The notes under the pieces were generated by a model. The model did no database searches. It saw only the letters and a program-made list of their open reading frames with translations, and had not been told where the DNA came from. The position numbers were made by a program, and so were the translations under genes. 64,000 nucleotides of DNA, from NCBI GenBank assembly GCA_016210205.1, contig JACQUO010000023.1:188012-252011 (forward strand), in the 5' to 3' direction. This document shows positions 31,223 to 53,258 of the stretch, piece after piece (the stretch's first letter is position 1; each line of letters opens with the position of its first letter). The stretch is from Chloroflexota bacterium (GTDB lineage: Bacteria > Chloroflexota > Dehalococcoidia > JACQUO01).

Positions 31223-32701
31223 ATGGCTAGAAACGATACCCTTCTCAAAAAGGCAGCCCAGCAGGTGGAGGGCCTGGGGCTGGCCTCCCCAGCGCCCCTG
31301 CTGGTGGGGGTCTCCGGCGGGCCGGATTCCGTCTGCCTCCTGCACCTCCTCTGGCGGCTGGCCCCGCGCCTGGGCCTGTCCCTCCGGGTAGCACACCTGA
31401 ACCACGGCCTGCGGGGCCAGGAGGCCGACGAGGATGCCCGCTATGTGGCCGGCCTGGCGCAGGCCCTGGGGCTGCCCCTCCACCTGGGCCAGGCGGATGT
31501 GGCCGCCGTCGCCAAGGCGCGACGGCTTTCCGTGGAGGCCGCCGGCCGCCAGGCCCGCTACGGCTTCTTCGCCGCCACCGCCGCGGCGGTGGGCGCCCAG
31601 GGGGTGGCCGTGGGCCACACCGCCGACGACCAGGCGGAGACCTTCCTGCTGCACCTCCTGCGCGGGGCGGGCCTGACCGGGCTTCGGGCCATGGAGCGGC
31701 GCTCTTGGTGGCGCGCCGCCGGCCAGCCCCCCCTCCTGGTGCTGCGCCCCCTGCTCGGGGTGGGCCGAGAGGAGACCCTGGCTTACTGCGCCGCCCAGGC
31801 GCTCCAGCCTCGCCAGGACCACTCCAACCTGTCCCTGGGGCCACTGCGGAACCGCATCCGCCGTCAGCTCCTGCCCCTCATGGCCCAATACAATCCCCGC
31901 ATCCGCGAGGCCCTGGGGCGGGCCGCCTCCGCCCTGGCCCAGGAGGTGGCCTACTTAGAAGAGCAGGTGGATGCCATCTGGCCGGGGCTGGCCCAGCCCC
32001 AAGGCGCGGGCGTCCTCCTGGACACCCAGGCCCTGGGGCAGCTGCCCCCCGCCCTACAGCGTCAGGTCTGGCGCCGAGCCTGGATGAGCCTCGAGGCGGA
32101 GCCGGAGCTGGAGGCAGCGCACCTGGAGGCCCTGGCCCGGGCTCTGGCCCGCCCCGGCCGCCGCCACCTCTCCCTCCCCGGCCGGCGGGCCTTCCTCAAG
32201 GATGAGGGGCATGGCTGGCTGGGGCCTGTTGAAGCCGCCCCCTACCCCTTGCCCACCCTGGCAGGGGAGTGGCCCCTGGCCGTCCCCGGCGAGACCCTCA
32301 TCCCGGGCTGGAGGGTGGAAGTGGAGCTGCTGCCCTCCACGCCTGAAGGGTTTGGGAAGAGGAGAAGCGCCCCCGGCTGGGACTGGGGCCTGGGCCCCAC
32401 CGCGCCGCTCATGGCTCACATGGACTGGCGCTCCTGCGGGGGCGGCCTCATGGCGCGGGGACGCCGCCCCGGCGACCGCTTCCAGCCCCTGGGCCTGGCA
32501 CACCCCAAGAAGCTCCAGGATTTTTTCGTGGACGCCAAGGTTCCCCACCCCTGGCGGGACCGCATCCCCATCGTGGCCGCGGGAGAGCGCATCCTGTGGG
32601 TGGCAGGGCTGCGGCTGGACGAAAGCGCCAGGGTCACGTCCTCCAGCCGGGAGGTCCTGCGCCTGACTTTTCACCTTGACAGCCGGGGGCGGGGACTTTA
32701 A
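31223..32701 (+). CDS. tilS: tRNA(Ile)-lysidine synthetase
   Basis: 'LLVGVSGGPDSVCLLHLLWRL', 'HLNHGLRGQEADEDA', 'GHTADDQAETFLLHLLRG'. Confidence 0.93.
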   Translation: MARNDTLLKKAAQQVEGLGLASPAPLLVGVSGGPDSVCLLHLLWRLAPRLGLSLRVAHLNHGLRGQEADEDARYVAGLAQALGLPLHLGQADVAAVAKARRLSVEAAGRQARYGFFAATAAAVGAQGVAVGHTADDQAETFLLHLLRGAGLTGLRAMERRSWWRAAGQPPLLVLRPLLGVGREETLAYCAAQALQPRQDHSNLSLGPLRNRIRRQLLPLMAQYNPRIREALGRAASALAQEVAYLEEQVDAIWPGLAQPQGAGVLLDTQALGQLPPALQRQVWRRAWMSLEAEPELEAAHLEALARALARPGRRHLSLPGRRAFLKDEGHGWLGPVEAAPYPLPTLAGEWPLAVPGETLIPGWRVEVELLPSTPEGFGKRRSAPGWDWGLGPTAPLMAHMDWRSCGGGLMARGRRPGDRFQPLGLAHPKKLQDFFVDAKVPHPWRDRIPIVAAGERILWVAGLRLDESARVTSSSREVLRLTFHLDSRGRGL

Positions 32702-32733
32702 CATAAGCCCACAAGTTAATAGATACCAGCACC

Positions 32734-32898
32734 TCTCCGAGCTGCCTCACCTAAAGAGCCATCCATGGGGGGCAGCCGCAGCGGATGAAAATCCCAACGG
32801 TGTGGGGAGAAATCCCCCCGCCCCTCGTAGTGGAAAGGAGTGGTGAGGAATTAGCCTATGCTTTCGCCTCACCCTTTCCGATGAGGCGAATTCTTTTT
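32734..32898 (+). promoter_or_regulatory. Probable Moco/Tuco-type riboswitch with transcription attenuator upstream of tupABC
   Basis: P1 CCTCACC (32745-32751)/GGTGAGG (32842-32848). The P1 3' strand can alternatively pair with CCTCACC (32867-32873) inside the terminator TTCGCCTCA/TGAGGCGAA (32863-32890)+TTCTTTTT. An internal GGGGA-GAAA-TCCCC GNRA hairpin is present. Confidence 0.75.
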
Positions 32899-32906
32899 AG
32901 AGCTAG

Positions 32907-33740
32907 GTGTCCGCTATGTCTCCAAGAATGAGCATCTTACTGGTCTTGGCCCTCGTCCTCAGTGGTGCGGCGGGGTGTCGGCAGGAGACCATGACTCTGG
33001 CCACCACCACCAGCACCTACGATACGGGCCTTCTGGACGCCCTGATTCCCCCCTTTGAGAAGGAGAGCGGGGTGAAGGTGAAGGTGGTGGCGGTGGGGAC
33101 GGGGCAGGCCCTGGCCCTGGGGGCAAAAGGGGACGCTGACATCCTCCTGGTGCATGACCCCAAGGCGGAGCAGGAGTTCATGGATAAGGGCTATGGGAGC
33201 CTGAGAGTGCCGGTGATGTCCAGCTTCTTCGTGCTGGTGGGGCCCCAGGCCGACCCCGCTGAGACTACGGGGGCGGCCAGCGCGGCCCAGGCCCTGGCCC
33301 GCATCGCCCGCGCCCGCTCCCCCTTCGTCTCTCGGGGCGACAACTCCGGGACCCAGGCCAAAGAGAATGAGCTGTGGGCCGCCGCGAGCCTGAGGCCGCC
33401 GTTGGGGGAGCCGTGGTATCTGTCCGCAGGACAGGGGATGGCCGAGACACTCATCCTGGCCAGTGAGAAGCAGGCCTATACCATAAGCGACATTGGCACC
33501 TATCTAGTCACCAGAGAGCGCCTCAATCTCTCCATCCTGGTGGCCAAGGACGAGCTCCTCCGCAACCCATACAGCATCATCATGTTGGATACCTCCAGAA
33601 ATCCTCAAGTCCAAACCCGCCTGGCGGCCAAGCTCAAAGACTATCTCCTCTCGCGGCAAACACAGGAGGCCATCGCCCGTTTTGGAGTTGACCGTTTCGG
33701 GCGCTCCCTTTTCACCCCAGCTATGGAGGGGGTGGAGTAA
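32907..33740 (+). CDS. tupA: Tungstate-type ABC transporter substrate-binding protein
   Basis: 'MTLATTTSTYDTGLLDALIPPFEKESGVKVKVVAVGTGQALALGAKGDADILLVHDP'. Confidence 0.88.
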   Translation: MSAMSPRMSILLVLALVLSGAAGCRQETMTLATTTSTYDTGLLDALIPPFEKESGVKVKVVAVGTGQALALGAKGDADILLVHDPKAEQEFMDKGYGSLRVPVMSSFFVLVGPQADPAETTGAASAAQALARIARARSPFVSRGDNSGTQAKENELWAAASLRPPLGEPWYLSAGQGMAETLILASEKQAYTISDIGTYLVTRERLNLSILVAKDELLRNPYSIIMLDTSRNPQVQTRLAAKLKDYLLSRQTQEAIARFGVDRFGRSLFTPAMEGVE

Positions 33741-33743
33741 GCC

Positions 33744-34439
33744 GTGGAAACCGTCCTCTCCGGCCTGGGGGAGGCCTTGAGCCTCATCTTCCGGGCCGAC
33801 CCGGGGGTCAGGGAGATTGTGCTCCTCTCGCTGCTGGTCTCGGGCACTGCCCTCATCATCAGCGCCCTGATGGGCATTCCCTTCGGGACGATGCTGGCCC
33901 TGGCCCGCTTCCCCGGGAAGCGGCTGGCCGTGGCCCTGGTCTACACGGGCATGGGCTTCCCGCCGGTGGTGGTGGGGCTGCTAGTCTATCTTCTCCTCTC
34001 CCACAGCGGCCCTCTAGGGTTTTTGGCGTGGCTTTTCACCCCCATGGCCATGGTCGCCGCCCAGGTGGTCATCTCCTTCCCGCTGGTGGCGGGCTTCACC
34101 ATGGCCGCCATTATGGGCCTTGACCCCAACCTCCGTCTGCAGCTCCTGAGCCTGGGCGCCACGGGATGGCAGGCCAACCTGGCCCTCATCGGGGAGGCGC
34201 GGGTGGGGGTCATCGTGGCCCTGGTGGCGGGCTTCGGGAGCATCATCTCCGAAGTGGGCGCGGTGATGATGGTGGGAGGCAATATCCAGGGGAGCACCCG
34301 GGTACTCACCACCGCCATCGTGCTGGAGACCCGCAAAGGCGAGTTCGCCCTGGCCCTGGCCCTGGGTCTCGTCCTCCTGGCCCTGGCCTTTGTGGTCAGC
34401 GCCGTCATGCTGCGCCTCCAGGGAAGGACCCTGCATTGA
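33744..34439 (+). CDS. tupB: Tungstate-type ABC transporter permease
   Basis: Multi-TM BPD-type permease ('GATGWQANLALIGEARVGVIVALVAGFGSIISEVGAVMMVGGNI') between tupA and the ATPase. Confidence 0.87.
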   Translation: METVLSGLGEALSLIFRADPGVREIVLLSLLVSGTALIISALMGIPFGTMLALARFPGKRLAVALVYTGMGFPPVVVGLLVYLLLSHSGPLGFLAWLFTPMAMVAAQVVISFPLVAGFTMAAIMGLDPNLRLQLLSLGATGWQANLALIGEARVGVIVALVAGFGSIISEVGAVMMVGGNIQGSTRVLTTAIVLETRKGEFALALALGLVLLALAFVVSAVMLRLQGRTLH

Positions 34440-35170
34440 TGGAGCAGCCAACCTACCATCTGGAGAGAGTCATCAAGCGCTACGGTCCGCGGGAGGTCTG
34501 CGCCATCGACTCTCTGGAGGTGAAACGGGGCGAGGTCCTGGGGATTATGGGCCCCAGCGGGGCCGGCAAGAGCACCCTCTCCCGCCTGCTCGCCTTCCTG
34601 GAGGCGCCCACCGCGGGGGCCATCTATTTCCATGGCCTGCGGCTGAACGGGGCCTTGCGGCCAACGCTAGAGGAGCGGCGCCGGGTCACCATGGTCTTCC
34701 AGGAGCCGGTGCTCCTCAACACCTCTGTCCAGGCCAATGTGGCCTATGGCCTCAAGCTTCGGGGAGAGAGGCACGCGGAGGAGCGCATCGGCCAGGCCCT
34801 GTCCCGGGTGGGCCTCCTCCCACTGGCCAAGGCTGCGGCCAGGACCCTGTCCAGCGGCGAGGCCCAGCGGGTGGCCCTGGCCCGGGCCCTGGTCCTGGAG
34901 CCCCAGGTGCTCTTCCTGGACGAGCCCACCGCCAACCTGGACCCCTACAATGTGGGCCTCATCGAGGAGCTCATCGCCGCCCTCAACCGAGAGCGGGGGA
35001 CGACCATGGTGCTGGTGACCCACAATGTGTTCCAGGCCCACCGACTGGCCCATCGGGTGGCCTTCATGCTGGAGGGGAGAATTGTGGAGGTGGGGGGGAC
35101 AGAGGACATCTTCACCCACCCCAAAGATGCCCGCACCGCCGCCTTCATCCGCGGGGAGATGATATATTAG
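34439..35170 (+). CDS. tupC: Tungstate-type ABC transporter ATP-binding protein
   Basis: Walker A 'GPSGAGKSTL', 'LSSGEAQRVALARALV', Walker B 'LFLDEPTANLD'. ATG overlaps the tupB stop. Confidence 0.88.
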   Translation: MEQPTYHLERVIKRYGPREVCAIDSLEVKRGEVLGIMGPSGAGKSTLSRLLAFLEAPTAGAIYFHGLRLNGALRPTLEERRRVTMVFQEPVLLNTSVQANVAYGLKLRGERHAEERIGQALSRVGLLPLAKAAARTLSSGEAQRVALARALVLEPQVLFLDEPTANLDPYNVGLIEELIAALNRERGTTMVLVTHNVFQAHRLAHRVAFMLEGRIVEVGGTEDIFTHPKDARTAAFIRGEMIY

Positions 35171-53181: not shown

Positions 53182-53258
53182 TGGCGACCCCGATGGGATT
53201 CGAACCCACGTTCTCCAGCGTGACAGGCTGGCGTGTTTGACCGCTACACCACGGGGCC
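53182..53258 (-). tRNA. tRNA-Asp (GTC)
   Basis: Reverse complement GGCCCCGTGGTGTAGCGGTCAAACACGCCAGCCTGTCACGCTGGAGAACGTGGGTTCGAATCCCATCGGGGTCGCCA; anticodon GTC; encoded CCA. Confidence 0.95.

Follow-up and report, generated by a model that had tools for sequence, protein, structure and literature searches.

Known systems

The element described here belongs among the RNAs of Rfam family RF01055 (Molybdenum / Moco RNA motif), presented by Regulski et al. in 2008 (PMC2408646). In that report RNAs bearing the P3 stem occurred exclusively beside MPT/Moco genes, those lacking it (58 of 176) occurred in organisms with tungsten genes, and the P3-bearing RNA of E. coli gave no response to Tuco. Moco represses in E. 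coli, where the moaA member appears to mask the ribosome site, and a terminator platform was reported for some members; direct ligand binding by this RNA class was not shown there (PMC2408646). Reviews note the frequent location of Moco/Wco riboswitches next to genes for molybdate or tungstate transporters (PMC9971707).

The bacterial class of the genome studied here is not listed in PMC2408646. A Moco riboswitch has since been reported before moaA/moaC in Dehalogenimonas, of the class Dehalococcoidia (PMC13390414), to which the genome studied here probably belongs as well, so that the family was already known from such bacteria; the RNA of Dehalogenimonas precedes a biosynthesis operon, whereas the one considered below precedes genes apparently serving tungstate uptake. 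An RNA of the same family controlling the same gene precedes tupA in Thermoanaerobacter wiegelii; it is without P3, in keeping with the published rule, whereas the leader described here bears it. The 2 kb or so preceding tupA in this species contain two P3-lacking Moco-class RNAs (L252:484-601 and 2134-2257). TupABC of Desulfovibrio alaskensis G20 (PMC5517513, PDB 5my5) includes a homologue of the TupA protein encoded here, with the oxyanion-binding residues; the protein encoded here falls under the NCBIfam curated cutoff.

The tupABC leader is a member of RF01055

The window, i.e., the whole analysed stretch of 64,000 nucleotides, contains a tupABC operon whose mRNA, we are confident, carries a P3-bearing RF01055 riboswitch with a transcription-termination platform, probably working as a cofactor-responsive OFF switch. 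In an Rfam scan of the 64 kb the leader matched RF01055 at 32724-32854 on the + strand with 51.7 bits (E 1.9e-9), that is, 15.7 bits above the gathering score of 36, and the covariance-model (CM) alignment runs end to end (model positions 1-135). The leader's membership in the family is thus established by sequence and structure, and the Moco/Tuco-type identity proposed in the original prediction is borne out by the search it had called for. RF01055 was the only cis-regulatory family found in the whole window. The matches to blv_FSE and Clostridiales-2, weak, far under their own cutoffs and overlapping P4, were discarded. The scan also returned two tRNA genes (RF00005) on the - strand, at 1812-1883 and 53185-53258. 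The leader region folds at -70.7 kcal/mol (z -3.3), more stably than any of 200 dinucleotide shuffles.

The aptamer shows the P1-P2-P4 architecture with the conserved junction CUCCGAG ... GGAAAGGAG, and shares P1, P2, P3, the GAAA loop of P4 and the invariant core with the RNAs in PMC2408646. P1 is formed by the strands CACC-U-CUCC (32730-32738) and GGAG-U-GGUG (32837-32845), both placed by the CM alignment and a constrained fold; its conserved part pairs CUCC (32735-32738) with GGAG (32837-32840), and beyond a U-U mismatch it is extended by CACC (32730-32733) with GGUG (32842-32845). P2 (GCUGCC...GGCAGC, 32741-32776) was placed by the CM alignment and covaries in 15 tup leaders. It contains a variant of the tetraloop receptor, CCUAAA (32750-32755) with CAUGG (32764-32768). 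The canonical 11-nt receptor is CCUAAG/UAUGG; CAUGG stands for the UAUGG of the consensus.

P3 is the hairpin GGAU-GAAA-AUCC (32783-32794), placed poorly by the CM alignment and found by the fold. Taken alone it gives a shuffle p of about 0.07; comparison with the P3 stems of relatives identifies it as real. P4 (32799-32822), supported by the CM alignment and by comparison of tup leaders, has its GAAA tetraloop at 32809-32812 and is the hairpin GGGGA-GAAA-TCCCC noted in the original prediction. The invariant core GGAAAGG (32832-32838) is followed by GGUGAGG (32842-32848), which can serve either as the P1 3' strand or, like GGAAAGG, in the 5' strand of an antiterminator.

The score of 51.7 bits is among the lowest above-cutoff RF01055 scores in the class, and the base of P4, AACGGU...GCCCCUC, departs from the family consensus, as might be expected of a decayed riboswitch followed by a constitutive or non-functional terminator. 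The same changed base is, however, common to two relatives (G011 and G015), in which it is still paired, the core CUCCGAG and GGAAAGGAG are intact in the leader, and neither promoter, terminator nor antiterminator is missing; decay is the least probable of the readings considered here. Compared with the members in PMC2408646, the leader is a P3-bearing form before a putative tungstate transporter, with variants in the P4 base and the receptor. The Tuco subtype is defined by the lack of P3, whereas the 22-nt P3 zone of the leader holds the GGAU-GAAA-AUCC hairpin; the Moco subtype, as defined by gene context, should occur only beside Moco/MPT genes, whereas the leader precedes tupABC.

The operon and its genome context

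The gene context is that of RF01055, whose members accompany genes of molybdenum or tungsten transport and of cofactor synthesis or use: tupA lies about 60 nt past the aptamer, and the downstream genes encode TupA, TupB and an ATPase, as the original prediction had assumed. tupA (32916-33740, + strand) encodes a tungstate-binding lipoprotein-like product and starts at ATG 32916, following AGGTG, with GTG 32907 as another possible start. The product scores 202 bits against NCBIfam TupA (NF041772), below the curated cutoff of 400, and this is still its best family; its closest PDB entries are 3muq, D. alaskensis TupA (5my5) and the tungstate-binding protein 3lr1. In the alignment with 3muq and 5my5 it keeps the oxyanion ligands listed in PMC5517513, namely TTTS, His, Arg and Thr of SRGDNSGT, and the aspartate of SD.GT. 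With the score below the curated cutoff, tungstate is its strongly supported but predicted ligand. The permease gene tupB (33744-34439, +) matches NF041773 with 158.6 bits, below the curated cutoff of 320, and NF038017 above cutoff; the gene for a tupC-type ATPase lies at 34460-35170 (+).

The genome also encodes four PF00384 cofactor-using proteins and two AOR-family (PF01314) proteins, the latter likely to use a tungsten or molybdenum cofactor. The AOR-family genes are located at G000:C19:166463-167593 and G000:C27:15288-16436, and neither coincides with a Moco-class RNA match.

Promoter and expression platform

Upstream of the leader lies tilS, the last codons of which overlap a sigma-70-type promoter, TTGACA-N17-TAACAT (32676-32704, + strand), agreeing with the consensus at 10 of 12 positions; 0.1 sites of that quality are expected in shuffles. 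Downstream of the aptamer an intrinsic terminator, UUCGCCUCA/UGAGGCGAA with the U-rich tail UUCUUUUU, occupies 32863-32898 in the constrained fold. Its hairpin (32863-32890) has the arms TTCGCCTCA (32863-32871) and TGAGGCGAA (32882-32890), followed by TTCTTTTT, and the whole ends before tupA. It was missed by the built-in terminator scan because that scan allows loops of up to 8 nt and the loop here is 10 nt.

The 3' strand of the antiterminator, CCUCACCCUUUCC (32867-32879, + strand, constrained fold), doubles in its 5' part as a terminator arm and in its 3' part as the terminator loop. It is complementary to GGAAAG (32832-32837) and GGUGAGG (32842-32848), and the pairing excludes both the aptamer and the terminator. 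In constrained folds the aptamer with the terminator reaches -71.4 kcal/mol and the antiterminator -72.4; the two states being about 1 kcal/mol apart fits the need of a switch.

These results leave the logic of the original prediction, a leader with mutually exclusive P1, antiterminator and terminator, in place and change one of its strands. All its strings lie at the coordinates it cited (CCTCACC at 32745-32751 and 32867-32873, GGTGAGG at 32842-32848), as do the terminator arms, the tail and the P4 hairpin. It was right that GGTGAGG pairs with the second CCTCACC to the exclusion of the terminator, and this pairing is longer than it stated, being extended by GGAAAG/CUUUCC. The assignment of the first CCTCACC to P1 did not survive, as the CM alignment places that stretch in the 5' strand of P2. 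In silico the proposed P1 (32745-32751/32842-32848) is a competitive fold, at -72.8 kcal/mol against -71.4 for the aptamer with terminator and -72.4 for the antiterminator. As a conserved element it was rejected, 142 of 200 partner swaps among 154 class leaders being as good.

Since CCUCACCCUUUCC is complementary to the 3' core of the aptamer and the P1 strand, ligand binding would favour termination, in agreement with the repression by Moco seen in E. coli (PMC2408646). Family membership, the promoter, the identity of the genes at the level of sequence, the mutually exclusive pairings and the conservation of the scheme are shown by the analysis; from these we infer that binding means off and that termination is the controlled step. 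The tupABC mRNA would begin near 32710. An ample supply of the pterin cofactor (Moco or its tungsten analogue) would stabilise the aptamer: P1 would occupy GGAG and GGUG, the terminator 32863-32898 would form and tupABC would be off. Under a shortage of the cofactor, GGAAAGG...GGUGAGG would pair with CCUCACCCUUUCC, blocking the terminator and allowing the tungstate importer to be made. The riboswitch thus probably shuts off the tungstate-uptake operon at sufficient cofactor. OFF switches of this kind, acting through termination, have been described in the family before, and every part identified here agrees with such a mechanism.

Control at the start of translation, rather than at termination, would have precedents in the apparent masking of the ribosome site by the E. 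coli moaA member (PMC2408646) and in the short leader of the relative G032, in which a terminator was not found. In the window, however, the aptamer and the start codon are separated by a 9-bp hairpin followed by a U-rich tail, and neither P1 nor the antiterminator includes the ribosome site AGGTG, which makes translational control here highly unlikely. The G032 element (L010, G032:C2:31998-32129) is a P3-bearing RNA located 39 nt before the match to the closest TupA relative (58% identical), and this leader may use ribosome-site masking instead.

Conservation of the switch in the class

Among 393 sampled genomes of the class, RF01055 was found in 121 and a TupA relative in 201. A strong terminator follows within about 120 nt in 105 of the 153 class leaders, where dinucleotide shuffles gave 3, and in 48 of these 105 the terminator 5' arm or loop contains a 6-mer complement of the GGAAAGGAG core (2.9 expected with shuffled arms). 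In the tup leaders, scanned with a somewhat looser energy limit, a terminator was present in 54 of 74, and 27 of the 54 carry the complement of the aptamer core. The terminator/antiterminator scheme is therefore conserved in related leaders. Taken with the RF01055 match, this is the opposite of the outcome named as refuting the original prediction, namely a leader matching no riboswitch family whose alternative pairings are not conserved.

When partners were swapped between class leaders, neither the variable extension of P1 nor the antiterminator as a whole showed covariation; the swaps do not weaken these pairings, because the complementary motif is near-identical everywhere. The antiterminator signal is the terminator's complement of the invariant core, i.e., conservation and not covariation. 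Within the aptamer, compensated two-sided changes occur in 14 of 25 consensus pairs across 15 P3-bearing tup leaders, with an invariant core.

Tandem Moco-class RNAs before tupA were observed in G108:C155, G185:C3, G061:C156 (the upstream RNA scoring under the cutoff) and G207:C97; they recall the arrays in series described for Syntrophomonas wolfei.

The P3 stem and the choice of metal

The length of the P3 zone is bimodal in the class, 3-9 nt or 15-42 nt, which makes the P3 state easy to call. Of 158 RNAs, 33 could not be parsed into stems automatically; 32 of these were classed by eye from folds or sequence, and one sub-threshold match was excluded. The gene tupA was called by profile, as blastp clustering lumped the downstream genes. 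Long P3 zones average -7.0 kcal/mol against -3.0 when shuffled, and 68% of them reach p <= 0.05. Sixteen different paired sequences occur among 30 tup-associated P3 stems.

The published P3 rule would make the tupABC leader a Moco sensor and not a Tuco sensor; its gene points to tungsten. The presence of P3 in the leader, together with the lack of a Tuco response in the P3-bearing RNA of E. coli (PMC2408646), would suit a strict Moco sensor, for which P3 means Moco only, as Regulski et al. proposed, and which would close tungstate uptake when Moco suffices, tungsten being a mere substitute. Since the metal choice of TupA is predicted from its sequence, a Moco sensor controlling tungstate uptake is possible in principle. 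The comparative data speak against strict Moco sensing. Among the 152 class RNAs whose gene could be read, the ratio of P3-bearing to P3-lacking RNAs is 35:41 before tupA and 35:41 before other genes (Fisher p = 1), so that P3 and tupA context are independent, and 35 of the 76 tupA leaders of the class bear P3. These counts are not independent, as P3 is inherited in clusters: on the TupA tree its state needs 7 changes, against 24 in shuffles. At least 4 of the changes are forced by well-supported branches, and several independent switches of P3 before orthologous tupA genes remain despite the clustered inheritance. By the class-wide counts P3 is uninformative on whether tupA is the target. Outside the class, the RNA found before tupA in an Aquicultor MAG (L227) has a long P3 zone.

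The genome of the window carries a second, P3-lacking copy (G000:C34:71364-71487, L001:1501-1624; 71.4 bits), which precedes a gene for a MOT1-family molybdate transporter (PF16983, 165.6 bits), contrary to what a strict Moco sensor in the tupABC leader would imply; the terminator arm of this leader, CCCCCUUUCCC, is complementary to GGAAAGG. In genomes with both RNA forms and both kinds of genes, the tupA leader bears P3 and that of some other gene lacks it in 8 of 10 cases, with the reverse in 2 of 10. With the P3-lacking copy before MOT1, the independence of P3 from tupA and its repeated changes on the tree, a strict Moco sensor appears possible, on the doubtful side. A P3-lacking RNA before a MOT1-like gene was also seen in G011 (L026). 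The RNAs L001 (before MOT1) and L029 (G040:C37, before a ModA-like gene) have the string CCGTTTCGGGT in common and an unusual P4 cap, with A-rich flanks around GGAAAC in place of a plain GNRA-closed stem.

We lean slightly towards a sensor of the tungsten cofactor, or of both metal forms, in which P3 is a peripheral stem without a role in the choice of metal. The tupABC context, the two AOR-family enzymes and the independence of P3 from gene context speak for it, tempered by the fact that the metal specificities of TupA and of the AOR-family proteins are themselves predictions; it is in this sense that we infer the metal form sensed. Whether P3 as such has no part in choosing between molybdenum and tungsten cofactors, in which case the founding rule would fail in the class or even be reversed within single genomes, we consider evenly balanced.

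Implications

P3-bearing and P3-lacking RNAs of this class appear to control predicted tungstate transporters equally often. The P3 stem, the only published criterion that we found for separating sensors of Moco from those of the tungsten cofactor, fails in the class, and annotations that read the choice of metal from P3 are not to be trusted there. The pair present in one genome, a P3-bearing RNA before tupABC and a P3-lacking one before MOT1, offers a neat test of the role of P3. The leader itself is an ordinary switch of a known RNA type; what it adds to the range of this riboswitch is a tungstate operon from a little-studied lineage.
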